Under the pieces are notes generated by a model. The model did no database searches, was not told the origin of the DNA, and saw nothing but the letters and a program-made list of their open reading frames with translations. 64,000 nucleotides of DNA from Polytrichum commune (taxonomy: Eukaryota; Streptophyta; Polytrichopsida; Polytrichales; Polytrichaceae): assembly GCA_950295325.1 (NCBI GenBank), contig OX485804.1, positions 33,480,001 to 33,544,000 on the forward strand. The letters are read 5' to 3'. Position numbers and translations under genes: made by a program. Below, one piece after another: positions 5,101 to 41,900 of this stretch (position 1 is the stretch's first letter; each line of letters opens with the position of its first letter).

Positions 5101-8100
5101 CATGGAAAAATGATCAACCAACTCTTTAACTTAAACCATGCGTCCTCCAATGTCAAAAATTTTGCCTACTTCAAAGTAATGCCAATCTTCAACGGCTAAA
5201 TCTTAGAACAACAGTTTTCCAATGACACAAAGATGAAGTGTTTCTTCCACCTATATTTATGCTGGAAGGATTCCCTTAGGTTGGGCACTTTGTGAGACCC
5301 TCAAAGGATGGTGTTGCAACCGTTTGCCCTAGAAACAAATCACATTTACATCAATTGTGTATACTTCGTAAGGCAAAGAACACTACCTAATATTCAAGTC
5401 ATGTTAAAGGTAGAAGCTTAATTTTACCACAATAGGGTAAACATTAGAAACTTCACTTACGTTTCTTTAGGCATTGGAAAGTACCTTGAGGGAAGGGGGG
5501 GGGGGGGGGAACAACAACAACAACAACATGTTGAAGAAGAAACATTGATTTAAATGAGTAATTAAGGTTAAGGAATTTTGACTACGCTTAGAATGGAATA
5601 GTGTGTTAAGTTTGACCATTTGTAATTTTGTAAGGGGTAACCACTTGTGGAATGGATGAAGCATTGAGTTTTGCTCTACTAGAAATGGAATGTATGTATG
5701 GATTGATATTGAACTAAATGCCTAAGCCTGGAACATTTCTTTGAATGACTTGGTATTGTGTCTTGACAAAGATAGTTAAGTCAACAATGTATTAAGGGGT
5801 GATCAATTGTCAATAAGAGTTCAAGTGAAAATTTTGCCTAACTCGGTAGTTGAAGGATTGTGGAATGCATTTAAGAGATTGTAGAATCCCAATGGTTGGA
5901 GGTATGAGTGTACAAGGTCAAATATCAAGTAATGATAGTAACCCTGAAGAAGGTACTTTTGGTGACCAAAGGGATTTACAATCAATATAGCAAGAGAATA
6001 TAATATTAGGAGTATACAACTTTAGTAGGATAACTAGTTAGTATCATAGTAAGGACCTCTACTGGTAAGGTATAAGGCGCACTAGGGGTACGGCCAGGCA
6101 ACCTTCACATAACATGATGGTTCCATCCGCAATTTCAAATGCACAATTGAAAACAAAAACCTTAAAATAGTCTATACCCATGTCATGTTCCAATTCAAAT
6201 ATGTAGACAAATGGCGTAGTAGCACGGATATACACCACCAATGGTCCAACCTCTTATGGAACCTACCCACCATTACATACGCACAATCTCTAGATTCTTG
6301 ATATTTTGATATGGAACCCTATGTGGTTAACATGTGAAATTTGACCGTCCTCAAAGGCTTCTTGTCTCCCATCCGCAATGACCCTCACACTTGACTACAC
6401 CTTCTATCATGGCGCCCCAACATCCCTCTCAGCAACCTCCTCACTACTTGCCATAATCAAGGAGTGCATGCGCTTACCACCCTCCTCAAACTCCACCCCT
6501 CAACAAGATGTCACATCCTCACCCACACATGTACCTCCCGCATCTAGAAAGCATTGTCCCCTCATGGTTACTCCCTTGCACAAGCTATGCCACCCGATGC
6601 ACTTGCCTCTCTAGACTACACCCATACATCCTATGCATGCAAGGCACACTCTCACACAACAATCCCATGTTTTACCCCTCCCTTTCTCTTAAAATGCAAT
6701 TCATATAATTCATGTAGTACAACGATTGATTCACACAAGACACCTTAAACCAACATCATTGATCCACCTACCAAACGGCATGCAAGTAACCCAAAAGCAT
6801 TGGCTTTTTGATGTAGGTTGTCCAACAAACCTAGTTCATGTTAGTGCCCCTGCACCGACATTCCTCTCTTTCTCTATGTAATGTGTGCATATAAAGTCTA
6901 AACTTAGTACTTAGTACCTTTCATGCTTTTTGGGTTGATACCTCAAATGGAAATTGTCCCTCTCCACCCCCCCCCTTCACCAATCACAAAGGTTCCTTTT
7001 CGCATGAAATGGATGGAGAGCCGGTTTACACTAGTGACTAATGACCACCCCTTCCTAATTTCTTTCATTGGTTGAGAAATGAGTGCCGGCCCCACTTTGT
7101 TTTACACAAGGTCACCAAAAATAAAAGAAACCATGTCAAAGAATCATCAAGAAAGTGACATGGAATCCTACATGTTCATAAATGGACAACATCTGGTGGT
7201 CACCCGAATTTTGCAACAAGAGAACCTAATAGACTGTCTCAATAAAACATTAAAAGCACATAGTTAGTGATTTCTAATTGTAGATCAACAATGTTCTTAG
7301 CACTCTTGTGTTTTTTTCATTAAAACCCTATGTCCATTGTACATTGTGTCATGTAACCAAGGCTATCAAAAAGTAATGTGAAACTCTCTTGGTCGTGGTC
7401 TTAGAACTACACACCACGACTATGTGAAACCCTAAACTCTTTTGTTTTGTTTTGTTTTTTCCTTTTTTCCTTTTTCTCACATGTGTAAAATGGCCATGAT
7501 CGGTGCATTCTCCTTCTAGTTTTCCAAACTCACTTTGATTCTTTCCAACTTATAAGGCCGATGACCAAGTGGACGTAAAGTGGAGTGCAGATTGAGGAGC
7601 CAGCCAAATGGGTTTGGAGTGTTGCTCATTAGAATATTATAGCTGATACAAGAGTCACGAAACGTGGGCTAACTTATTGTGTTATGGCATGGCCTTGCAA
7701 GGAGGCTGAGGAAGGAGTAACTTAGCAGAGAAGAGAAGGGAGAAGCAGCTAGCCTATAGCAGGAGCGAAAGCAGGGCATGTGATTGGGGACAGCACAAAA
7801 GGTTTGCAACCACTTTTGCCACCAACACCCAAAAGCTGACATTGCCTCCCTCTATGAGCCTACTAGCTTAATTAAGCTTACATTGCCCCCGTCCCCACCC
7901 CTTCCTTTTTCCCACTCGACTTTTAAGGTGTGTGGGTGTTCATTATTCGGTTCGTTTTTCATGTTCTCCAACTTGTACCGATTTGGATTTACACAACAAA
8001 ACACGACGTGTGTTTCACTAGCAAATCTACGATGAAGCATCGATATAAACGGTGTTCAGAATCAAACCTTCCATGATATACTTATGGTTAATGACAGTGC

Positions 8101-11591: not shown

Positions 11592-12385
11592 CGGTGGGAG
11601 TTGAAACACTAGGATCTCGCTCGCTCGCTCATACCAGGGCCACACCAAAAACCCGGCCGGGGATTCGTGGCACTCATGTATTTTCATTAGTGAGAGTTCA
11701 TTCATCTTTGCGGATGAGATGAACCACTTTAGACACTACCTCACATTGTTGGCTCCTTGTCTCAAGGGTTTCAAAAATACCAAGTTTTAGTAGTTCTAAA
11801 TGATCCTAGTCTAATCTAATACTTAAGGCAATAATACAAAGGGGATTAGATAAAATAAAAATGCCTCATATAGAAACAAGTGGGTGCATCATGCGTTGCC
11901 AACCTATGATTACTAGTCCGGTTATTTTTAAGAAATTAATATGGGCGGACATTAAATACCCCCTCACAAACTTTCGGGGGTGTCAAATCTAGGCTAGGGC
12001 AACCCTCTAAAGAAATTTCTAAACCTAATAAAAAATTGTTGCCCATCCCGCCCAACTTCGAAAAAAAACATTGCCCTTGCATTCTTGAAGGGCGCTTGAC
12101 TACAAATCCCATATTGAGTGCACTTCACTTCAAGGTCTAAAATCCAATATATATGTGCACTTCCAATTAGTAAATAAGCAATTGATTGGGATTTCATTCC
12201 GGAAGTGAAACCATCAATGAAGCATGTAATTAACTTGGAGGTCAAAAACATTGCAAAATCCTCATTAACATTGAGGTTATAATTTTGTGACTTAAAACTA
12301 TCTTTGTCATCCTAATGATAGATTAGTGCAAGTGTTCATAAAATGACCAAAATGAAACAATGAATGTAGAATATAAAACATACGA
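11592..12385. other. Noncoding spacer
   Basis: No coding or terminal-repeat signal was found. The first part (11592-11700) carries the phrase 'cactaggatctcg' that accompanies the accggtt repeat family elsewhere. Confidence 0.45.
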
Positions 12386-12741
12386 ATAAATATATAAATA
12401 TATAAATATATAAATATATAAATATATAAATATATAAATATATAAATATATAAATATATAAATATATAAATATATAAATATATAAATATATAAATATATA
12501 AATATATAAATATATAAATATATAAATATATAAATATATAAATATATAAATATATAAATATATAAATATATAAATATATAAATATATAAATATATAAATA
12601 TATAAATATATAAATATATAAATATATAAATATATAAATATATAAATATATAAATATATAAATATATAAATATATAAATATATAAATATATAAATATATA
12701 AATATATAAATATATAAATATATAAATATATAAATATATAA
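12386..12741. repeat. 8-bp minisatellite, (AAATATAT)n, about 44 units
   Basis: About 356 bp of essentially perfect tandem repetition of an 8-bp AT-only unit, with no visible variant units until the last ten bases. It is far longer and purer than any other simple repeat in the window. The flanks are ordinary AT-rich DNA. Confidence 0.97.
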
Positions 12742-13473
12742 ATATAAATATTATTTTTTAGGTAATATAATATGAGCTATAAATAAATGGTATGTTATTT
12801 GGAATTAGACTTGTGGGACAACGTTATGGATGGGGTATACTCAGAAAATCATAAGTTTCTGACTATAGCCTATCTGAAATATTATAAGATTTTATCCTCA
12901 TCAAATATTGTATTATCTTTAAAATCGCATGGTGTAGATTAATTATTTTCAAATAAATGTTATATTATTATTATTATTATTATAATGAATTAAAATTTGA
13001 GTTCACCAATTTACCATAAGTTGATATATATTATTTTGACATATTACAAATGTTTGAGCAATCACACCCGTGCAAAATAAATGAATTATGAACAAAAAAA
13101 ATTCTATGACAACACATCATAATTATATGTTGCACACGTTGATATCTTGCGATATTTATCAAAATAACCATATGGAAGTCAAAGCCACATCATGGCCTTG
13201 GAAACAACTTTATGGGAGGTTAGAAAATAGGCTTAGAGCATCCAATGCCACATCGTTGCCTCTTGCCAACTAATTGATATTTACAAAATAGCTAGTAGTT
13301 CACAATAGCTATGAGGGAGAAAATAGGTCTTACATGCCAACTCGGAGGCGTTTCACTAAAGTAAGCTCCATCCGAGCTTCTTGATGAACTCATCCGATTT
13401 TTGTTACCGGATGACTTTACTTGAGTGCCATGAATCCCCGGCCCAAAAACCCCAACAGCTCCAGTAGACATAA
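12742..13473. other. AT-rich noncoding stretch
   Basis: It contains a short (TTA)n run near 12962-12982. No gene or terminal repeat was identified. Confidence 0.5.
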
Positions 13474-20736: not shown

Positions 20737-21147
20737 ATCCTAAGTCCAAGATTTGAATAGAAAGCATCAATAATCAACATGAAGAGAAGCTCCCCTTTGA
20801 ATGGTCATTGCACTTAAAGGACTAAGAGTTTGAAGACGAGATTGGTGTCTATGGAAAGAGCTTGAGAAGTCAAATATGATGATCTCAAGCTTACATGCGA
20901 AGTCCAAGAGATGAGAGAGAAAGCATTGAAAACAACATGAAGAGCAGTTGCACCTTGAATGGTCAATGTGCCCAAATGGCTAAGAGTTAGGATGCAAGTT
21001 TGGTGTCAATGGATGGAGTTCAAGAAAGCAAATCCACAGAACATACTCTTGCAACCTTAGTCCAATATGTTAGGGATTAAACATCAAAAAATTGACATGG
21101 AGATGAGTTGGACTTTGAATGCTCACCCTACCCAAATGGCGAGGGAA
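20737..21147 (+). repeat. Diverged tandem repeat, about 158-bp period, 2.6 units
   Basis: Units begin near 20737, 20894 and 21053 with AGTCCAAGA/AGTCCAATA and share AAAGCAT(C/T), AACATGAAGAG, TTTGAATGGTCA, CCAAATGGC, AAGAGTT and TTGGTGTC(T/A)ATGGA. The third unit is cut off exactly where the Mutator-like element's inverted repeat begins, so the element probably inserted into this array. Confidence 0.75.
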
Positions 21148-21247
21148 GCTATCTTATAAGCGATTAGCAATGAGCAGTGAGCGGTGAGCAGTAAGACATG
21201 AGCGGTGAGCAATACGACATGAGCAGTGAGCGGTAATATATGAATAA
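21148..21247 (+). repeat. Left terminal inverted repeat with 7-bp subterminal repeats
   Basis: After GCTATCTTATAAGCG come about ten in-register 7-mers of the type TGAGCGG, TGAGCAG, TAAGACA and TGAGCAA. The inverted counterpart lies at 32150-32215. Short iterated subterminal motifs are the usual transposase-binding sites of cut-and-paste elements; that role is inferred here. Confidence 0.85.
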
Positions 21248-22774
21248 TGAATTCAAAATAGTAAAGGTGCACGGGTTTAGGGTATATGAACTAAATATAG
21301 TACTACATGAATTGAAGATTTTCAAATGTAAAGAGTTCAAATGAAGCAAGAAAGAATCGTATTACCGTGGATCATTGGAAATACTTCCAGTCCATTGCTA
21401 ATTTTTATTATAACAATCCAAACCAAAACATGTCATTTTTTGACATTCAAATATATGGTACTTAATAGACCATTTGCAATACTACTCACACTCTACAATA
21501 CCAGCAAGTTCAAGTAGTCGCATGACCTCGTTATAGGTATATGTAGGTGCATGAATGAACTTGTCACTCTCGTAATCCACCTTAACAAAAATTTAAACAC
21601 ATAATAAAGATGTTTACAATACACCCATTTTCCTTTCTTTCCCAATGCATGAGAGGATATTTTCGTGAAATCCGGGCATGTGCAATGCGGGATGTCGCCA
21701 ATTGTGACATGGTATGTGATATCTTGCTTGGAGACAATGTTGATTATCACTCCAATATGGAATGGCAGTGACCCCAACCACATAGTAACCCTCCATGAGT
21801 CCGGCACTCTCCCATTTGTTTTTGTGATCCGCTAGCGGTGTTGTTGGATTACGACGCACTGTCTTCCCAAACCTGAATGTAGGGTGGGCATCCGGGTTTG
21901 GTGGCATAGAAAAATGCGAGCGAGGGATGGGGAGAGTTGCAATTGTTGAAAGCCTACGACGAGGGGACAATGCCTTCCTCTGCTGTAGTTGAAATTCAGC
22001 ATCTTCAAGTGCCAAAACCTCCTCTCTCGATAGATTGGTACCTATCTTCACCGGCCACGTGTTGGGTACTATAGGCCAGTCCAACACATATTTCTTCTTA
22101 CTGCCACTCACACAACGCTTGATGTCGTCAGGGCAAAACCAAAATTCATACTCCACATTGTTGGGAGATCGAAATTCCTTCCTGAGCCCTTTGTATGTTG
22201 GGGCAGGTGTGCCATGTTTCCCAGTCCCGATTTTAGCATTGCACATAGTCCCTGTAATGGCCTGTAGTGCCCAACATCGTTTGGCTGAGTTGGGTGGTAA
22301 TCTTGCAATGTGCCACTTGGAAGCAAGACAATCAGTCTCTAACACGGATGTAGTATGAGCCACACTATGAATTGCAGAACTCAACGATTCCTCTATGCGT
22401 TGACGAGTTGCTCGGGTGTTGGGACGAGGAATGGAATAGTCCACTTTGTCGGGTCGATGAGAGTCACAATCGGCACCCGGTGGTAGGTTGAATTTGCGTT
22501 TAGTAGAACCAAAGAGTTCTGACCCTTCCAATGCACAATCTCTAATGTTGACGTCTTCTGCCCCTCGGTAAGACTTCATGGCATCAGCCAACATTTTTGG
22601 ATCTCCACACCTGGCAGCTGCTTTGAGTTTCAAGGAGGCCGAATCAGGACCTTTACTATCAGACCCCCCTTTCAACCATGTCCGGTAATTTGCAATTTGC
22701 ATGAAGGCACGGATCATGTCGTCCACTGTAGCTTCATATAAACAAGTCATCTTGTTGCCGGACTGTTGGAGCCA

Positions 22775-23171
22775 TTTGTTGTGTACAGTCTCTGCAAGGT
22801 TGCATGTTGGCATTTCCGCATGCTCTTCTATTGTCATATCCTATGAACAACACACAAATACAAGGATAAGACAAATATAAGATAGATTATATATCTAGGT
22901 TTGGGTCGAACGATCCAAACTGCCTACAAGGTTTGGGTCGAACGACCCAAACTACATACAAGGTTTGGGTCAAACGATCCAAACTGCCTACAAGGTGTGG
23001 GTCGTTCGACTCAAACTGCATACAAGGTTTGGGTCGAACGACCTAAACTGTTTGTTGTTTGTTGTGTACAGTCTCTGCAAGATTGCATGTTGGCATTCCC
23101 GCACGCTCTTCTATTGTCATATCCTATGAACAACACAGAAAGACAAAGATAAGAAAAACATAAGATATATT
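22775..23171. repeat. Direct duplication of an exon/intron border flanking the palindrome array
   Basis: About 113 bp at 22775-22888 (the start of transposase exon 3, its splice acceptor and upstream intron) recurs with few differences at 23058-23171. The second copy therefore contains a pseudo-exon with its own ATAG acceptor. The palindrome array at 22899-23050 sits exactly between the two copies. Confidence 0.85.
22899..23050. repeat. Palindrome family P1, array of 5 in the transposase intron
   Basis: Five copies, about 31-35 bp apart, of an inverted pair with half-site GTTTGGGTCG and centre AA or TT. Each can form a 10-bp stem with almost no loop. The separators resemble 'tgcctacaag'. The same palindrome recurs seven times at 27720-27940. 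Confidence 0.93.
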
Positions 23172-25488
23172 ACATTGAATAATGAAGTTTGATATGTACT
23201 TACAAGTAGTATATGGCCACCCCATTGTCTGTAACGAAAGTGCCAAAATCCCAACCACTTTGAAAGGCCAAGGATGCCTTCTTCGGAGGCAGCTCCAAAT
23301 GACAACCACCAAGAACGAATCACATGGTACTTGGTCTCAGCATCGTACATTGTTTTCGCGTCTTTGTAATCCTTGCATATTTGTTTGTGTTGAAATTGCA
23401 ATGATAGTTTGATATACTTTTGGGTCACCTTATTCAAGCTTGCGGACCAATGGAAAAGACATGTACGCTCACGTGCAACCATGGGTAGACTTGGATCACC
23501 ATCCCCATAAATCGCCCTCACCGCATTCCAATTAGCTTGAGCACTATCAGCCATAAACCCTTTGAAGTTTACGTTTCGTACACCATTTTCTGCCATGACA
23601 GCATTCAAATTTTCCCAAAAGAGAATTTGTGCTGCACCATCTTCAGATTGTATGTCACAACACGCAATAGTCAACACTTTACAGTATCGACTCTCGTACA
23701 CATGGCAAGCCATGGTCTGACATGGTCAAACATAATTCATGAATTCTCCATATCCCCACCGACTTGCATCCTCTTCACAAGCTCCACACCACTACCTGGA
23801 AGGTCTACAGACATCTTGAAAATAAACACTTTGTCCTTTGAATGCCCTGGGAACCGACTACCATGGACGAATTTAAAAGCAGAGTGCTCTTTGAGCGCCA
23901 TAATACTATCCATAGTTCCCATTCCACTACGCAAAAAACGCTTTGATCCAGATACAAAGTTACGATAATTTGGAGACGCAAGAGTGCTGAATTTGTCCAT
24001 GACGACCTCTAGGGATGAACCAACCAAATGATGGCCTTCGACATTTGCAGGAGATTTGAGAAGGTAATCGGCCAAGAATTGTTTGCTCGCCGCCATAACT
24101 ATGGCCGAAATTTTTGTTGTGGGTGTTTTCAATACTTCATTTGCAACGCATTGGTATACCATGTCCAATAATTCACGGCATGTGCCATTGGTCACAGGGT
24201 GATCATGTACACCAAGATGAATGCAAGTCCTGGACATTCCAACGGATGTGGAGTGGATGTATATGATTCGAGCATTACACAAAGCAATGCACACACGTGT
24301 GGAACAACATTCGTTACACTCGACAGTGGACTTAGTAGGAGGAACAACACCCACAGCAAATGGGATAGGAGTTGAACCGGCCCATTCAGTGTTGTTCCGG
24401 AGGCCCCCATTGCGATTCATGTAATCACAGTAGTCATTATGACATTGGAGATGACCAGCACAAGTACAGCGCCGGAAGGACAGTCCAAAGTCATTTTGGA
24501 TATTTGTAGTTTTGGTGGTGCACCAAGGGTGACCGTCGCACATTTTGTCCATGCCGGCCATTGAGCGACCATACGTACTTGGAGCTTTGAGCGCCACAGG
24601 AGGCAAGAGAAACAAAACATCACCATTACAAGAAGATGGTAAGTACTTGACTTCACGAACATCTATACTGTCAAAATCAATGGATGCAATATCGGACTTT
24701 GATTTTTTTCTTGACTTTGTCAGCTTCAAGGCATCAACCATAGTCAACCCTATAGATGAAGGTGAAGGGTGTAGTGGAGGACGTTGAGAAGGTGAGATTT
24801 GGGGAACCATCTTCTTGTACATAAGACCGCAAGGGGATTTGGCTACATGTATAGGAAGTTGGGAAGGAGTAGAATGAACACTTCTAAATGGAAATGGCGA
24901 TGTGTTTGAAAGATCAACAAATGCACAAATGTCATCTTTTGAATCTGATAGCACAAACACACTATCATCAAGGGGTTCCACCTTAACAGGTGTGATAGAA
25001 GGAATTTGAACTGTGGATGTACCAGATTCGTTTGTCAAAATGACTGTTAAAGCTTACATCTGAGACTCATAAAGTCCTATCACCCTAAATGAACTAGGTC
25101 TTAAGATCCACATAAAACCAACATCAGTTCTATTTTTTGGAACCAAAATCGTTTCATACACCTCTCCATCTGCAGAGTACATCTCATGCTTTAAATACAT
25201 GGTTCCTATCTGGAGGTTGAATCTCAAACTAAGTAAATCCTCTGAAACACTCACATGACCATTATCTTGGACTAGCAAGATGAAGGGAACAAAAAGATCC
25301 ATGAGCTCTAATGGTAGCCATAGAAAATCAAAAGAACATATGAACAACACATCACAAAAATATGGGGTGAATGTTGCTTTCGTATAGAGTTCTGTGAGGA
25401 AATGAATGGAAATGAAAACGTGTGATACAATAATGGATGGAGATGAAAACGTGTAATACATAGCATCTAATAATACAGAAGTGGACAT

Positions 25489-25843
25489 AACACAATAATA
25501 GTCAAAGAATATTTACGAGCAAAATATACACAAAATGGCGTCAAATACTAAAAGTATTGGTATAAATTTAAAATATATATGTGTGGACTGACGTAGATGT
25601 AGAAAGAATTAAAATTGGTTGGAATAATAAATTATTGATCATTATGAATAGAACAAAATAGGTGTCCGAAAATTTTGGCGGATATAACAAAAATAAACAC
25701 ATAATGACAAACGCGTCGAAATATCTCGTTCATTGAACGCCAATTACAACATGTGATCGTAATATACGCCGGATTTTGTGACATAGATACATTGGCAGAA
25801 TAAATGATAGTACCTGATAAAAAACATATCATAGACACCAACG
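25489..25843. promoter_or_regulatory. Divergent intergenic region of the element
   Basis: This AT-rich gap separates the start of the minus-strand transposase from the plus-strand open exon at 25844. A TATATATTTTAAAT stretch (25566-25580 read on the minus strand) could serve as a TATA element. No other motif is clear. Confidence 0.35.
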
Positions 25844-26125
25844 ATGGTGGACGATGTAGAGAGAACACCCGTGAGGCCGAAAAGAAGACGTAAAAAAACT
25901 TTGTATTTCACTTCCGAGAAAAAGAGATTCAGACTCAGTGTGGGAAAGAAGGATGCAAATAAGGAAGGGAAAAGAAACTTGTTGAATACGGTAGGAAAAA
26001 CTGTGAAGACACTGGATTTTGATGCGATGGAGATTGATGAAGGTGCAAAGAGCAAAGAAGATGTAGACGATCGTATATCAGAGTCTGAATTCAAGACGGG
26101 TTCAAAGAAGACGACAAACAAAAAG
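25844..26125 (+). CDS. Putative first exon of an uncharacterised basic/acidic protein
   Basis: An open frame of 94 codons starts in a good context (ACGATGG) and ends exactly at AAG|GTAAGT, a consensus 5' splice site at 26126. The product has a basic, nuclear-localisation-like cluster (PKRRRKK, residues 12-18), is Lys-rich to about residue 55, then turns acidic (DFDAMEIDE, KEDVDD) and ends Lys-rich. I recognise no domain. The partner exon is not identified: the phase (0) does not match the acceptor at 28216 in the frame used by the downstream gene. It could be an alternative 5' exon of that gene, or a separate small gene of the element. Confidence 0.45.
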
Positions 26126-26229
26126 GTAAGTCAGTTCAACGTTCACATAATTTGATAGTACATAAGTTGTAAGTTAGGACGGAGAACCTCGTATGTTCAT
26201 TCACATGTCATGTAGTAGCAATTTATAGA

Positions 26230-27010
26230 AGTTATAAATTGGAGAGGACAAACCCTATACGTTAATGCACATGGTATATAACAGAAATTTAGGAAGACTA
26301 GAAGTCAAGAGGAGAACCCAGAGGGTTTATAAGAGCAACTTAGGAGGCGAGAAGTTGGGAGGTGAAACCCTGTACGTTAACGCACATGGTTTATAAGAGC
26401 AACTTAGGAGGCAAAAAGTTGGGAGGTGAAGCCCTGTACGTTAACGCACAGGGTTTATAAGAGCAACTTAGGAGGCAAAAAGTTAGGAGCTAAAATCCTG
26501 TGCGTTAACGCACAGGGTTTGTAATAGCAACTTAGGAGGCCAAAAGTTGGGAGGAGAAACCATGTACGTTAACGCACAAGGTTTGTAAGAGCAACTTAGG
26601 AGGCAAAAAGTTGGGAGGAGAAACCCTGTGCGTTAACCCATAGGATTTGTAAGAGCAACTTAGGAGGCAAAAAGTTGGGAGAAGAAACCCTGTGCGTTAA
26701 AGCACAGTGTTTGTAAGAGCAACTTAGGAGGCAAAAACTTGGGAGGAGAAACCCTGTGCGTTAACGCACAAAGTTTGTAAGAGCAACTTCGGAATGCCAA
26801 AGTTGGGAGGAGAAACCCTGCGCGTTAACGCACAAGGTTTGTAAAAGCAACTTAGGAAGGCCAAAGTTGGGAGGAGAAATCCTGTGCGTTAACGCACATG
26901 GTTTATAAGCGCAAGTTAGGAAGGCCAAAGTTGGGAGGTAAAACCCTGTGCGTCAACGCACAGGGTTTGTAAGAGCAACTTAGGAAGGCCAAAAGTTGGG
27001 AGGTAAAATG
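26230..27010. repeat. 64-bp tandem array, about 11 units, each centred on a palindrome (family P2)
   Basis: Units repeat about every 64 bp. The constant parts are AAGAGCAACTTAGGAGGC, AAAAGTTGGGAGG and a palindrome GTGCGTTAACGCAC extended by CC(T/C) and (A/G)GG to about 20-22 bp. GTTAAC sits at the centre in most units. Variation falls mainly outside the palindrome core; a few units have one broken arm (26626, 26690). The array lies between the 25844 exon and the TATA box at 27560. Confidence 0.95.
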
Positions 27011-27457
27011 ACAAGGAGAGCCTAAAAGTAAAACAAATATCTATTGTATGAATTTAAATCGATGTTCAGAGCGTAGGAGCAAAAAAACTATTCAAAACGG
27101 GGTTTGAATGCAAGAAATGAGAAATATGTCTACTCAAGTATTTATGCAATACGTTATAGAAGCTAGAAAATGACACAAAATAGCATTATTTTTTTTTGCC
27201 CCGAAACCCAAAATGTACGAGGTGGCCCAAAACAAGGAAATAGATAGAAGAGTGAGAAAAGAAAATGATTTCAAACCAAAACAAAATATCAGAAGAATTT
27301 GAAGCTACGGAAATTTAGATAATATAGCATATTTTTGTTCTTTTTTGGGACCCCATTAGAATTTTTTCCAGATTTTACAAGTTTTGGCAAATCTACCAAT
27401 TCCAGACAAACGCACAGGGTCTACTTGCTTAGCTAGAGGCTTTGCAAAGTTGGGCAA

Positions 27458-27489
27458 GTAGACCCTGTGCGTTAACGCACAGGGTCTAC
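27458..27489. promoter_or_regulatory. Perfect 32-bp palindrome, P2 type, upstream of a TATA box
   Basis: The half-site GTAGACCCTGTGCGTT is followed immediately by its exact reverse complement. It is the longest perfect palindrome of the P2 family and stands alone, outside the 64-bp array, about 70 bp upstream of TATAAATAG. A half copy (ACGCACAGGGTCTAC) occurs at 27410-27424. It resembles an operator in placement; that is inference. Confidence 0.85.
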
Positions 27490-27559
27490 GCTGGCAACTT
27501 TCTAGCGGCTATGCGGGGCCACGAAGAGCCACGCTAAATATGGCTGCAGGGACGAGTAG

Positions 27560-27568
27560 TATAAATAG
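27560..27568 (+). promoter_or_regulatory. TATA box for the ParB/methyltransferase-like gene
   Basis: TATAAATAG lies in a GC-richer context (GAGTAGTATAAATAGCC), an excellent plant TATA consensus. Transcription would start near 27590-27600, and the first in-frame ATG of the downstream gene is at 28225, leaving a long leader (with a possible intron) that carries the P1 palindrome array. Confidence 0.65.
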
Positions 27569-27719
27569 CCACACCCCCAAAGCATTCAATCTTTTTTCTC
27601 TCATTTGTCGGACCTGAGCTCGTCGCTGCAAGCTCTCTCATCTATAGGTGCAGTACAAGGTTGTTTGCACTTTCGTGATGACTGGGTAATTGCGCATAAT
27701 CAGGTGTAAATTGCGAACA

Positions 27720-27940
27720 GTTTGGGTCAAACGACCCAAACTGTCTGCCTAGTTTGGATAGAACGACCCAAACCATGTTCACAGTTTGGGTCGAGAGACC
27801 CAAACCACGCGTAGAAAGTTTGGGTCGAACGACCCAAACCGCGCGTAGAAAATTTGGGTCGTCCGACCCAAACTGGCTGTAGGCGGTTTGGGTCGCTCGA
27901 TCGAATTCACGTGGACAGTTTGGGTCGTTCGACCCAAACC
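27720..27940. repeat. Palindrome family P1, array of 7 in the leader of the plus-strand gene
   Basis: Seven copies of the GTTTGGGTCG inverted pair occur every 30-39 bp, several with perfect arms and a variable 0-4-base centre (AA, GAGA, TT, TCC). The separators differ from those of the intron array, so the palindrome and not the spacer is what is shared. In RNA each would form a stable short hairpin. Confidence 0.93.
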
Positions 27941-27977
27941 TCGCGTCCAACTTTGGTAGACCTGTAGTTGGACACAC

Positions 27978-28005
27978 AGACCCTGTACGTTAACGCACAG
28001 GGTCT
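27978..28005. promoter_or_regulatory. P2-type palindrome downstream of the P1 array
   Basis: A 28-bp inverted pair with half-site AGACCCTGTACGTT has one mismatch between the arms. Together with 27458-27489 it brackets the TATA box and P1 array. Confidence 0.8.
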
Positions 28006-28224
28006 GGCCTTATAGTTTTGGGTGAACGGCCACCCTAATCGTACAATATTTAAAGGTGCAAATGGCAGTGTCTAGGATAATTTTTGTCATTTTTCCCTGT
28101 GTTCGTGGTATTCTGTTGTTATTGTTGTTGCTATTGCCGTTGTTTTTGTAATGTTATTGCTAATGTGTTGCTACTGGTTTTCAAATATTTATGAAACTTA
28201 TTTCATTTGTTTTAAGACCAATCA

Positions 28225-31200
28225 ATGGATTTGGAGAGAACGACTCCTATTTCTACTGATGATGATTCCACAATGCATTCAACTCAAGATCGTCCATCTC
28301 AACAAGTTCATCATCATCAGGACATATCGTCAAATCTTCATAATAAGAAAATAAAAAATAAAAAATGAATCCCTCGATGATTTTGACTCGGATGGTGAAG
28401 ATAATGATGGTGATAAGTGTGGGAGCTTACAAACAAACGAAAGGTCAATTTCACTTCCACAATTTCCTCAATCCGTGCTAGACTTAATGCTCGCTTGCGT
28501 GTACCCTTATGTCGCATGGTTCCTATGCTGATTGTTCGTCCTGCTTTGAAGGGTGACATTACTAAATTGGAGGCTGATTTTTTCAATGGTTATCGTAATG
28601 GTAACCGTGTGTTTTATATAACGGCCACAGATTCTAAGGGAAACTTTCAATTCGTGGATGATAAGGTTCGCGCATTTTGGAGCCCAAATTGGGCTCAAGC
28701 CAATGCCCTGTTTGAATCTCAATTGGATACAGATTTGTCATTGACGTCATACAAGAACAAGATGTTTTTTATATGGGATGGAAATCACAGATTTTTTGCT
28801 TGGAAAAATTATATTGACCGCGTATATACCGAAGATTATGAATGTCATGTCTTTGTGGATTATATCATTTTGGCGTCCGAGCCTGACTACATTCCAAGTT
28901 TGTTGACTGCTATGCATGACATCAACAAGTAATATTCTTACCTATTTTTTTACACGTATTTCTAGTTTATATTTTGTTTTCCAAATTATATCATCATGAA
29001 TCTAATCAATTTAATATTTTTTTCAGGTCAACCGAAAATTCTCACGTATCCACCAATTTGGTGCATACTTTATATCGGATGCAAAATATTGGCACCATGC
29101 CTTTGACTTCCTCCAGAAAGCAACTGAATCCAAAGAATTATAAAGGATGTGAGGAGAAGTCTGTCGAAACTTGGTATTCTTTGACACGACCAATTTTTTT
29201 GGATTACATGTACAATGTAAGTTCTTCTACCATTGCTAATATGTGCCTTATGTTTATTGATTTTCATTTTACATTACACCTATATGAACTTATAAATATT
29301 GACTTTTGTTTGATTTTTCAGCAAGAACTTACTGAGGCTAGCGATATTGCTCTCAACCAGTACAATGAAATTCATCCTCTTGAACGGACATCAGACGGAG
29401 TTTCAAAAGCAATGTCCGCAGCTGTCAACAAAAAACGTGCAATGTTATCTTCTAGTTTTACGAAACAACTAGCGATTGCCGATATCAACCTTACCTCTGC
29501 TTTTCTTGAAGAAGTTAAGCACCATTGGGGTTCATTTTCGGTGCCTGAAATGCTACAAGAGAAACTTCATCGTGTTGCTGTCAGTAATGTGGATGCAGAA
29601 GTCAAAGTTGGATGGCTCAAGCTTTGGAATGGCAATAGATTTGACAAAGATGCATTGCATTTCCCGAAATCGCCCCTCTCTGATTCTGCACTTGATGATT
29701 GGTTATCAAAGTCTACATATTGGGCACAGTTGGAAAAAAAGGCTATCGAAGAGCTTCAAAATGTTCTTTCATCTCCTCTTCAGTTGCCTGCAGATGTGCC
29801 TACTCTCTCCAAGTATATCCAAACCTGGAAGTTTGCGCTTTCAATTCAATATTCTATCGTAAATTCCAAAGCGGAAAAGTTAAAAAACAAAACGGTTGGG
29901 ATGAGCAACCTAATATTGATCTTGCTATGAAACGTGTATTATACAGGTACAACCTAATCTTGTTATTTTTTTGATTTTTTTTATTCCATTTGTCAAATTG
30001 TCATGGAATATTTGACTTACAATATTTTTGTGTGTAGGTATTTTCAATATGTTTTGATTCCACATAAATGCGTTATAGGGGAACCTCGTTTTTTTCCAAA
30101 TTGGCGTGACACTGGTGCAGGAGATTCATGCATGTTCACTACTGATATTTGTTTGGATTGGTCGCTCCCACACTATGAGGATTGTGGTTGGTATCTTGAT
30201 TGTCCTAAGGATGCATGTCCATCAAGTGAGAAGACAATCCGTCAGATAAATGATGCTAAAAATATGGATCCTCGTGATACTGCAATTTTGCAAGCACAAA
30301 TTGTGCAGCTTAAACTTAGAGAGCCAGAACCAAAAGAAACAAAACGTAGTAAGAAGAAACATGTTCCTGAAACCAAAATACAAGGTCAATCGGAAATTTC
30401 ACAACATGAAGAATTGCTTGTTCTTTCCAATGATTTGGATAAGAATCCACTTGGAGACGAAAGTTCAAAGTCTGGGTGCGATGTATTGGAATTCCATTAC
30501 TCCAACACCTATGACGCTATTCATCGTGTGCCAACGGATATTTTGAGAAAATAGTTATTCATACTGAAGAACTTTCTCACGCTCTCGTTTGCTCGATCTA
30601 TTGCTGTCAAGAACAAGTCTGAAGGGGTGGATGTAGGCCCTCCTGAGTGGATCCAATGGCGGAAATTTCTTGAAAACATAAGTATTATTGTTTTGGTATT
30701 TTCTCTAATGTTCTTACTTTCATTTGGATTTTATTTTGTGTCTTATATTGTGATATGTTGTGGTATTTCAGTTCAATGACAATCCCGAATTTCATGTCAT
30801 GGGAAATCCGACTCCCTTTGCCGTTGACTTGGTTTTTCTGCAATTTCCCGACGGTCTTGATTTCAACCTCTCCAATAGACCTGCTGAAATTCCTCTTTGG
30901 AATAAATATGACAAGAACTGGATGGTTGCAACAATGTCCTTGTGCAAGTCCATCTTGTCTGATGATGGCATCCTCATAGTATTTTCTGCTATCGATGTGC
31001 AAACCAAGAAGGTTTTGAATTCAACCTTAGACAACGGCAACATGAAAGTTCTTAGGACTTTTATTTGCCTCAATTCGTACATGGTGTTCAAGGATCCGGA
31101 GTCTCCAACCTACACCGTAAGTATAACACACAATTGTTTATATTTAATTATTTTGGTGTTATTTGCATTGTATATAGTTTTAACACAATTTACATTTTTT

Positions 31201-32025
31201 TGTAGACTCCGGCATTTATGGCTCATGTCTTGGTAAGGGATTTTACTACCACAAAATCCACGAGACAACCAAACTCCATTTTTTTTGGCATTGGATTGAA
31301 AAGCAAAAACTTGCTTTTCAATTTTGTGGATGAAAAAAACATGCTTCTTCAAAAATCGGGAAGACCTTGGAGGGGGCCATATCAAAAATCGCCGCGTTTT
31401 TTTTCAAGATCTTATTGAATTGTTTACACCATCGAATGGACGCGTTGTTGATTTGACATGTTCCACTAGAGCTTCTATCCTAGCAACACACGCATGTGGC
31501 AGACATCTTCTTGCTTTTGAGGGTGATAATGACATGTTTGAGCACATATTGAAACCGCTTTTAGAAAACGTTTTGAAAGAGGGGTCATCTAAGGAGAATA
31601 TACAAGATCTCACAAAAAAAGATGATAACCTCTCAGATGAGGAGATGCTTGAATTTGAGTGTGAGTAAGTTTTAATACAATAAATTTTTATTCAATTCAT
31701 TCGTTTCATTCAATTCATTGGTTCATTTTTATTTCTTCACATTATTTACATGTTTCATCGATTTGATTTCAGGAATACGATTGGAAAGAGGACATGTCTC
31801 CCGTTTTGGGCACATAGACAATTCCTACGAAGTCCAAGCCGTAGCCCGCGTCTCCCATCATATGCCGAGAATGTTGCAATTGCAATGTTGAATCTCAAAG
31901 ATTCGGATCCAAATGAAGAATCTTGCTATAGTTCCAAAATCAATTCGCAATGCAAAGGTGCTCGAATATATATAGATGACGAGGCAAAAGATAGTTTCAT
32001 GTCTAGTGCTACTACTGATGAATAA
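28225..32025 (+). pseudogene. ParB-like domain fused to a beta-class DNA-methyltransferase-like domain (decayed)
   Basis: Seven exons: 28225-28928, 29027-29216, 29322-29946, 30038-30677, 30772-31116, 31206-31664, 31773-32025. All junctions are phase-compatible and, with one exception, carry GT/AG, giving about 1,070 codons. Exon 1 has IWDGNHRFFAW (DGNHR at 28777-28791), the signature of ParB/Srx-type N-terminal domains. Exons 5-6 read DLVFLQFPDG (30829-30855, where DPPY would stand), LSDDGILIVF, then DLTCSTRAS (31450 on, where DPFxGSGT would stand). The catalytic block comes before the SAM-binding block, the beta-class order. Motif I has lost its glycines and motif IV is not DPPY, so methylation activity is doubtful even if the gene were intact. 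Lesions: opposite one-base shifts near 28360 (A run) and 28499, a shift at about 29849, TAG at 30552, donor GT>AT at 30678, and an extra T near 31400. Confidence 0.78.
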
Positions 32026-32149
32026 ATTTTTGGACTTCATGTTGTTTATCCTTCTCAACCCTCTTATTACTAAACCCTAAAATCATCATTTGTAAGGCCA
32101 CAATTCCACGGTTATAGGATATTGGTGGCCCTATTACCGAAATTTTCAT

Positions 32150-32215
32150 CTTCCTCACTGCTCATAAGTTACCGCTCATCGCTCACCGCTCATTGCTCAC
32201 CGCTCATAAGATAGC
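32150..32215 (-). repeat. Right terminal inverted repeat with 7-bp subterminal repeats
   Basis: Read inverted, it begins GCTATCTTATGAGCGG and continues with TGAGCAA, TGAGCGG, TGAGCGA and TGAGCGG units, mirroring 21148-21247. Confidence 0.85.
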
Positions 32216-33961
32216 ACTCCCCACCTTGGTGGGTGCATTTGGTTCTCATTATGTGGTAGTGTGGCACCCTTGAGGGTTCCACCTTCCCTCCAAGTGGGTA
32301 TATATATTTTTAGTATTTTGATCCATTTTTGGTGTCACCCGTTTAACCTTCTGTCCACATCAAAACCAAAACCAAAATCAAAGAAAAAAAAAATTAAAAG
32401 TAGCAGATGAAGACAATGATGCAAAAGATAATCCCCTAAAACAACAAAATGCAGCGGCCTCCATAAGATCAAGGTTAGTACCAACTTGGCAAAAAGACTT
32501 GAAAATTCCTAATATTGTATATTGAAACAGGATGGGGTGCAAGCGTGGTCAATTGGAGTATTAAGTTGATCAAGTATGTTGAAATCACACATTTCTTGGT
32601 CACAAGCTATAAAATAGTACCAAGATATCTTTTAAGTTGATTAATTTTCATGAATTAATCATGAAAATTAATTAGTGTTACAAGTACTCAAATCTATAAT
32701 ATCAAATGATATCTTCAAAACATTAACTAAAATTATGTTCACAAACAAATGACTATATTTGGTTCTAGAGCCTACTTTAATAACCCTAAATGTCTTAAAG
32801 TTGAATTGGACTTTTAACACCTTGAGTTCATGAAAACTTGTGGGTTTTATCACTTCCAACTTCAAAAAATAGACAATTTTAATGTATTCTAATCTTATTT
32901 TGAATAAAAAATTCTTGACCTAATGCAAGTTGTTTCTCAATATGAATTATTTTTACCATGAAAAACACTTGGATACTTAAAGCATAATGCGATTTGAAAT
33001 TTGCTTTGAAATTTGTAGTTGTACAACCCATAGAACATAACCTTCATGCATCGAAAATGAACACTTAGAGTGGAAACATAACAAGAGTGAGTGTGTATTC
33101 ACAAGCACAACACTTACTCCGTAAAAGACTGACCATGTTGCCCAGAAAATTGCAACCATTGTTGCTAAGTAGGAGTCATGTGGTTCTCTACAAGTTTGTG
33201 CAGGTGGATTTAGGGCATGCAAAACAAAACAAACCTATGTAATCATGTCTCATAACTAAGTGTCCAATCATGCACCAAAGAAACAAACAATTTATGACAA
33301 TAAAACAAACAAACATCAAGATCTAAGAGTAAGGCTATCCAAATTCCCACATTGTCAATCGAATCATCCCCATGACGGACAAAGTATTCTCGCGGCTAGC
33401 CTGACTTGAGGTGCAAATGGATTTCATAGAGGTCCGTTACATCGAAGCATGCAAAAGAGCTCGTGTGAAGGCACAACAAAATTACCCTTCATAGTCCACA
33501 TCTTCACTTGAGTTGCCATCCGTAAACACCAACATGGCCGCCCCAACAGAAATGGAACAATCAATCACAAGCCATGCACAAAAACTCTTAACCCTCAACC
33601 ACCTCCAAAACAACCATAAGACCTTCAACCAAGAAAATTAAACCCTATATGGAACTTCACGGAAATGCTTGATTCTAAAACAACTATAAAGGAGACTCTA
33701 GAAAGGAGATCCTAAACCAACTACAACAAGACATACTTGCTGGAGTTTGTTACCATAAGCTTCAACAAGGAAGAGCTTCAACAAAAAGTTGCCCAAAACA
33801 CAATAAACACGAGGAAGAAACAAAACCCTAGGTGTTTTTAACAAACGGCAGTGAGTGGAAACGACCAATAACGGGTGCTACAACTTTCATTCATTTTTGG
33901 GCAAACAATGAGCCATTTTTCATCCATCCCTCATGAGGCATGCGTACAAAATTGATCCTAC
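32216..33961. other. Noncoding spacer
   Basis: The only structure seen is an AT-rich hairpin at 32638-32676 (half-site TTAATTTTCATGA). No gene is supported. Confidence 0.45.
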
Positions 33962-40821: not shown

Positions 40822-41282
40822 GAACTTGTGAGGCCAAACCACCCACCCTTAAGCATCCTAGTCCGGGTGAGGGAATGGATATCACATTCATGCTTCCACA
40901 CTCCATTTGACCAAATTCGTGAGAATCCATTACATTTCTCATCAATCAGTGCACACCAATCCATTCCACGATAATATTACAAGCGTTGACAAACGCTCTT
41001 CTCTATTATCCCAATCATAACACCCCCTATTGCTACCCCAATACCATTCACACCCCAAATCCAACCGCTAATCCTACCATCCAATACTTCTTGTTCTCCT
41101 AGCTTACTAACGAATTAATTATTTAAACTAATATTAAGTGACAACCTAATTAACTATCTATTACCAAGTCCCATGTGGTTCCCCCCTTTATATTCCTTGG
41201 TTCCCTTGAGTCCTATAACTAAATCCCTCAAGCCTAGCATTAAGCCCTTGCAACCAGCGCTCCACATTCCCTTGTGACCGGC

Positions 41283-41900
41283 AGCTGCCCTCCCTAGCTA
41301 AGCTTAATCTTTGAACTGCTGCCTTAGCCTGTCCTCGGCAGCCTTATGTATTAACCACACTAAGCTTAATCTTTGGCTGTTGCCTTAGCATGTCCTCGGC
41401 AGCTGCCTTCTGTATTAACCACACTAAGCTTAATCTTTGATTGTTGCCTTAGCCTGTTCTCGGCAGCTGCTGCCTTCCCTAGCCCAGCTTAATCCTTGAA
41501 CTGCAACTGCCTTCTTTGAACTGCTGCCTAACCTGTACTCAGCAGCTGCCTTCTGTATTAACCACACTAAGCTTAATCTTTGAAATGCGGCCTTAGCCTG
41601 CCCTCGGCAGCTGCTGCCTCCCTAGCCCAGCTTAATCTTTGAACTGCAATTGCCTTCTTTGAACTGCTGCCTAACCTGTACTCGGCAGCTGCCTTCTGTA
41701 TTAACCACACTAAGCTTAATCTTTGAAATGCGGCCTTAGCCTGCCCTCGGCAGCTGCTGCCTCCCTAGCCCAACTTAATCTTTGAGCTGCAGCTGCCTTC
41801 TTTGAACTATTGCCTTAGCATGTCCTCGGCAGCTGCCTTCTTTGAACTGTTGCCTTAGCATGTCCTCGGCAGCTGCCTTCTACATTAACCACACTAAGCC
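41283..41900 (+). repeat. Complex tandem repeat inside LTR copy C
   Basis: A basic unit of about 65-75 bp (CTTAATCTTTGAACTGC, GCCTTAGCCTGTCCTCGGCA, GCTGCCTTCTGTATTAACCA) is repeated eight or nine times with deletions. Two adjacent blocks of about 175 bp (from 41524 and 41699) are almost identical, so a higher-order duplication has followed the first expansion. Confidence 0.9.

Follow-up and report, generated by a model that had tools for sequence, protein, structure and literature searches.

A fusion of a ParB-like fold and a DNA-methyltransferase-like domain as a selected gene of a moss transposon

A 64,000-nucleotide stretch of the genome of the moss Polytrichum commune (contig OX485804.1 of assembly GCA_950295325.1, positions 33,480,001 to 33,544,000; hereafter the window) was found to carry a transposon of 11,082 bp at 21141-32222, within which a seven-exon gene lies on the plus strand at 28225-32028. 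This gene, which encodes a fusion of a ParB fold and a methyltransferase-like domain, is under selection, and the transposon family that carries it is marked by inverted repeats and 10-bp duplications. In the conserved protein of about 1,080 residues, a ParB/sulfiredoxin-fold domain is followed by a long middle region and then by a permuted DNA-methyltransferase-like domain. The copy of the gene in the window is damaged; other copies in the genome (a 408-Mb assembly in 64 contigs, including seven of 42-78 Mb) are open. A first-pass annotation had read the locus as a ParB-like domain fused to a permuted methyltransferase fold inside a Mutator-like element (MULE), and this overall interpretation was supported: a ParB fold was predicted, and the close copies were found linked to a transposase.

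The exons were placed at 28225-28928, 29027-29216, 29322-29946, 30038-30695, 30772-31116, 31206-31664, and 31773-32028. Measurements of five introns (of six) gave lengths of 76-105 bp, GT/AG borders, and a guanine-plus-cytosine fraction of 0.19-0.26; the fraction was 0.38-0.42 in the exons, six of which were measured. Added together, the five longest stop-to-stop frames on the plus strand of 28225-32025 come to 994 amino acids, compared to a mean of 395 and a maximum of 593 in 500 dinucleotide shuffles. The motifs DGNHR (28777-28791), VDLVFLQFPDG (30823-30855), and DLTCSTRAS (31450-31476) were confirmed at the positions first given for them. The GT/AG introns of the proposed spliced frame are real and recur in related copies, but the frame itself is not continuous in the window, being interrupted by three breaks and by an in-frame TAG at 30552-30554.

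The ParB exon gave at least 150 matches in the genome (150 scored of 1175 candidates), all at E ≤ 5.5e-37, and these fall into a close group (group I, about 55-99% identity) and a distant group II (41-44%, 21 matches). Pairing with the methyltransferase part was assessed for those ParB matches among the 150 listed that had E ≤ 2e-83 (96, the window's own included), against methyltransferase matches listed with E values up to 2.4e-63; a partner lay 2.2-3.7 kb downstream of the ParB exon start on the same strand in 87 of the 96, with nine misses. When 13 related copies were aligned with the window using MAFFT, the same exon borders were observed in most of them, while L049 has lost the junction of exons 3 and 4 and in some copies individual splice sites were altered. 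Four of the 13 close copies (L042, L043, and L044, which are nearly alike, and L051) have an open frame of 1,082 codons. The exon 4 donor is altered in L042-L044, the exon 7 acceptor also in L043, and the exon 6 acceptor in L051; since each thus has at least one altered splice site in the alignment, none of the four is demonstrably intact throughout.

The ratio of nonsynonymous to synonymous substitution rates (dN/dS) was calculated by the Nei-Gojobori method, with few changes available in some exons. Among L042, L051, and the broken L053, the ratio was 0.12-0.21 for the ParB exon, 0.06-0.08 for exon 2, 0.11-0.24 for exon 3, 0.25-0.41 for exon 4, and 0.26-0.81 for the methyltransferase exons, which are therefore under the weakest purifying selection. 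Higher values, up to 0.74, were obtained for pairs of closer copies and for pairs with the window. In the same three copies, dS was 0.24-0.73 in exons 1-3 versus 0.04-0.19 in exons 4-6, and the low dS of the 3' half suggests recombination or gene conversion between lineages.

The ParB/sulfiredoxin-like domain lies at 28417-28928 on the plus strand. The structure predicted for a homologue, from an alignment that included the window exon, has a ParB/sulfiredoxin fold, in line with the ParB-like fold first claimed. DGNHR was present in 119 of 120 fetched homologues, the remaining one having DGNHM, and L054 and L055 have WEGNHR; the DGxHR-type motif with its Arg is box II of the ParB/sulfiredoxin-fold superfamily. 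Single-sequence searches of 5.8 billion proteins returned 5910 candidates, none at E ≤ 0.001, and 18 candidates, none at E ≤ 10. These negatives were deemed a matter of sensitivity because a search with an alignment of the ParB part then gave 760 proteins at E ≤ 1 outside the genome. No Pfam match was obtained at E up to 10, and phrog_1033 (ParB-like) was matched in one case of five, at E 0.14. The single-sequence AlphaFold model of the window exon had a predicted local distance difference test score (pLDDT) of 43, and nothing in its Foldseek list reached E ≤ 0.001. In viral contigs and plasmids, the ParB part found no relatives, and among phages it found only 13 weak records (E 5-7); the alignment search of the PDB gave six weak, unrelated matches.

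The permuted methyltransferase-like domain lies at 30772-31664 on the plus strand, with LQFPDG (within 30823-30855) at the motif IV position and DLTCSTRAS at the motif I position. The window version matches the DNA-methyltransferase families phrog_67 (E 9e-6) and phrog_3008 (E 0.0012). Against a profile of 11 phage and plasmid methyltransferases, the window domain scored 22.0 bits, compared to 10.2 for the best of 2,000 shuffles; when the 288 window frames were searched, the unspliced 31300-31668 ranked first at 18.9 bits, and the next scored 7.1. The score is somewhat favored by the fact that the window query itself had been used to find four of the 11. Profiles were also run for four members of the family: two copies of group I, L055, and a relative located downstream of L047. 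All four matched PF01555 at E ≤ 1 (best 2.5e-4), the best member reaching 21.5 bits against a curated cut-off of 26.7, and the match in L042 covers profile positions 30-218 of 221 in order. All four matched phrog_3008 and three matched phrog_67 (best 6.9e-8). A PDB search with the four-member profile placed DpnA first (E 7.4e-4), while the third match was an unrelated viral protein (0.042). No match was found in an NCBIfam scan, and PADLOC gave MTase_II only at E 0.029. Searches of phage records with the methyltransferase part gave 14 at E ≤ 10, seven of them annotated as methylases and none significant. The relative downstream of L047 (5274-6092, oriented) is divergent, at 24% identity, and stands directly downstream of a group I element.

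Motif IV precedes motif I in the PF01555 match and in the alignment with phage enzymes, bearing out the beta-class block order originally read from the motifs. Of the profile assignments expected for the two domains, matches to methyltransferase families were obtained, but PF01555 stayed below its cut-off, and the ParB part had no Pfam match and a single weak match to phrog_1033. Beta-class amino-methyltransferases have a catalytic (D/N/S)PP(Y/F/W) motif and GxG in motif I. The matches support, at the level of sequence profiles, the assignment of the C-terminal part to the permuted DNA methyltransferases; enzyme activity is not established by the defining residues.

The neighboring transposase gene lies in pieces on the minus strand at 21496-25053 (frames 23740-25053, 23120-23725, 21617-22840, and 21496-21831) and is broken in the window copy. 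It carries a CxCPDF...CKH SWIM-like pattern (CxC..CxH), for which the two matches to SWIM PF04434 (E 0.0056 and 0.077) were below the cut-off. At least 102 genome matches (102 scored of 3046 candidates, window included) are 90-100% identical to 21617-22840. The transposase was found on the minus strand, divergent to the ParB gene, in all six left ends examined, and upstream of at least 59 of the 96 ParB exons, compared to a mean of 0.2 and a maximum of 2 for random positions (200 draws); the linkage counts are lower bounds given the 102 matches scored.

The element begins with GAGGGAAGCTATCTTAT and ends with ATAAGATAGCACTCCCC. Its left terminal inverted repeat (21141-21243, plus strand) contains tandem GAGCGGTGAGCA-type units, and its right repeat lies at 32151-32222 on the minus strand. 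A BLAST self-comparison of the window detected 83% identity over 65 bp between 21148-21212 and 32151-32215, and comparison with other copies extended the ends from 21148 and 32215 to 21141 and 32222. The same ends adjoin perfect 10-bp duplications (GTCTACGGAC, CTGCCTACAC, and ATGCCAGACG, read by eye) in three of four other copies for which both ends could be compared; two further copies were left with one end not found. The window copy (21141-32222) and the fourth copy (G000:C2:33548-33562 kb; L041, L066) have no duplication of their own. The fourth copy is inverted, 44 kb from the window copy, and is 99% alike in the ParB exon and 94% in the transposase part. Since the 10-bp flanks of the two copies, read by eye, match crosswise (ACCTTGGTGG; CCCAAATGGC), the segment between them has probably been inverted by recombination between the two copies, or alternatively by an inversion in the assembly.

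Tandem motif arrays, a feature of the VANDAL type, occupy noncoding parts of the window element. A TTTGGGTCGNNCGACCCAAA-type palindrome array with a 32-bp unit lies inside the transposase gene (22897-23050), a 64-bp unit repeated 10.8 times at 26315-27003 carries GTGCGTTAACGCAC-type palindromes, and a second TTTGGGTCGNNCGACCCAAA-type array lies upstream of the ParB gene (27717-27946). In the window, both types are confined to the element, with 12 GTGCGTTAACGCAC-type matches versus 0.05 expected and 19 TTTGGGTCGNNCGACCCAAA-type matches on both strands at 11 places, where none was expected. The TTTGGGTCGNNCGACCCAAA type was found in 11 and the GTGCGTTAACGCAC type in 12 of 13 group I loci, and neither in any of seven group II loci. 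The divergent copy C5:38650301 has the GATAGCACTCCCC terminus, which was reached in one of the seven group II loci fetched, and holds other palindromes (GGCATCTCGGATCCGAGATGCC) and a 65-bp array, while further kinds of tandem array, without perfect 16-bp palindromes, occur in L056, L058, L059, and L060. The array within the transposase gene is flanked by a 118-bp direct duplication (22775-22892 and 23058-23175, 91.5%). Three perfect GGTTTGGGTCGATCGACCCAAACC palindromes of the group I kind were also observed in L044 at 5307-5799 (oriented), beyond the right end of the element. Elsewhere in the window, a long TATATATAAATA-type simple repeat at 12307-12776 is open in three minus-strand frames, and tandem duplications that overlap each other, 69-92% alike, occur at 41279-41899.

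The gene product is tentatively proposed to be a sequence-specific DNA-associated factor that serves the element, loading at its arrays and keeping it expressed against silencing, a reading rated a little below an even chance. The ParB-like domain would bind a nucleoside triphosphate (NTP) and act as a switch or clamp, and the methyltransferase-like domain would recognize DNA but, in the window's lineage, probably not methylate it. The protein's loading sites would be the palindromic arrays that lie between the two genes and inside the transposase gene, and the element would stay expressed despite host silencing, like VANDAL elements through VANC proteins. A role in self-recognition was inferred by analogy, because the targets of VANC are tandem repeats in the elements (PMC5735166). 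The protein may thus help the element to mark or protect its own DNA.

Several observations qualify this picture. The window frame has breaks around 28.36 kb, within exon 3 (~29.88 kb), and within exon 6 (~31.39 kb). Motif IV is noncanonical, reading LQFPDG in group I and DLPEG and DAPED in two divergent sequences, and motif I is DxxxSTGAS without GxG in all four aligned sequences (DLTCSTRAS in the window); an intron divides the motif in the two divergent sequences, where it was joined by eye. The expected linkage of homologues to a SWIM-like transposase was seen for the close copies. None of the 21 group II ParB exons lies near the close transposases listed, though the one group II copy whose surroundings were read (C5:38650301) has a transposase exon that is 56% alike. 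Among the window frames, none matched PF10551 (MULE) at E ≤ 1, and there was no match at the window's place among the 142 matches of the genome-wide list. MULEs have target-site duplications of 8-11 bp, and since PF10551 is unmatched and SWIM stays below its cut-off, the label Mutator-like is based on the inverted repeats, the duplications of 10 bp, and the SWIM-like pattern; to that extent, the original assignment was retained.

An active N6-adenine or N4-cytosine DNA methyltransferase that marks the element's DNA, with the ParB-like domain as its regulator, is a rather unlikely reading of the protein. The permuted motif order and the profile matches agree with such an enzyme, as do the Asp of motif IV, kept in DLPEG and DAPED, and the second Gly of motif I, kept in all four aligned sequences. 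However, no DPPY-type motif is present, group I having QFPD at its place and the two divergent sequences DxPE; Ser replaces the first Gly of GxG in every one of the four (two joined by eye across the intron), and purifying selection is weakest in precisely these exons. A role in transposition itself, in target choice, end pairing, or partition-like handling of copies, was judged somewhat less likely still. The divergent arrangement with the transposase in 6/6 left ends is in its favor, as is the frequent link of mobile elements with ParB-fold proteins (PMC12704722); nothing stands directly against it, but the arrays of palindromes are placed inside and between the genes, and the ends hold separate repeats.

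Passive capture of a host or bacterial gene without function for the element, as Pack-MULE cargo, was rejected as highly improbable: captured gene pieces are frequent in MULEs, but here the exon structure is kept in most of 13 copies, dN/dS is below 1 in the open lineages, and the subfamily with a 43% alike ParB exon shares an element end (one of seven group II loci fetched). A chance frame or misread motif, suggested by the four interruptions of the window copy, is refuted by the number of genome matches to the ParB exon, the 760 proteins, and the fold and profile matches.

The proposed DNA-associated factor could, in a wider and more doubtful form, be part of an NTP-gated ParB-like system of the element's own, which would load at subfamily-specific palindromes and spread, its methyltransferase-like domain, active or dead, countering silencing while protein and palindromes coevolve. 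If true, ParB-type NTP switches would reach eukaryotic mobile DNA. The open copies, together with relatives in public sequence data, offer a testable system for transposon self-recognition and resistance to silencing. Among the literature matches listed, all open-licence papers, there was no ParB-methyltransferase gene in a eukaryotic DNA transposon.

Fusions of the ParB-CTPase fold to an N6_N4 methyltransferase (PF01555) occur in phages (PMC12704722), so that their existence, asserted in the first-pass annotation, is in print. The moss gene is likewise carried by a mobile element and combines a ParB/Srx-fold domain with a domain of the DNA-methyltransferase type. Unlike the phage fusions as described there, it is spliced, lies in a eukaryotic-type DNA transposon, and has several hundred residues between the domains, noncanonical catalytic motifs, and no Pfam ParBc match. 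Thus, a fusion reported for phages and prophages is found here as a selected part of a multicopy transposon in a large, intron-bearing genome. Retrotransposons of dinoflagellates and charophytes with C5 cytosine methyltransferases (PMC5890265) also carry a transposon-borne DNA-methyltransferase-type gene but differ in element class and methyltransferase class, and no ParB domain is named in the available text. The N4-methylcytosine methyltransferase of bdelloid rotifers (PMC8885841) is similarly a bacterial-type amino-methyltransferase in a eukaryote; it is reported as responsible for an epigenetic mark and, in the part at hand, is not described as a ParB-bearing DNA-transposon gene. The VANDAL elements and their VANC proteins (PMC5735166; PMC10398659) lack, as far as described, the ParB plus methyltransferase-like architecture and the palindromic units of the moss element, but they share with it an accessory gene accompanied by rapidly changing tandem repeats in noncoding parts.
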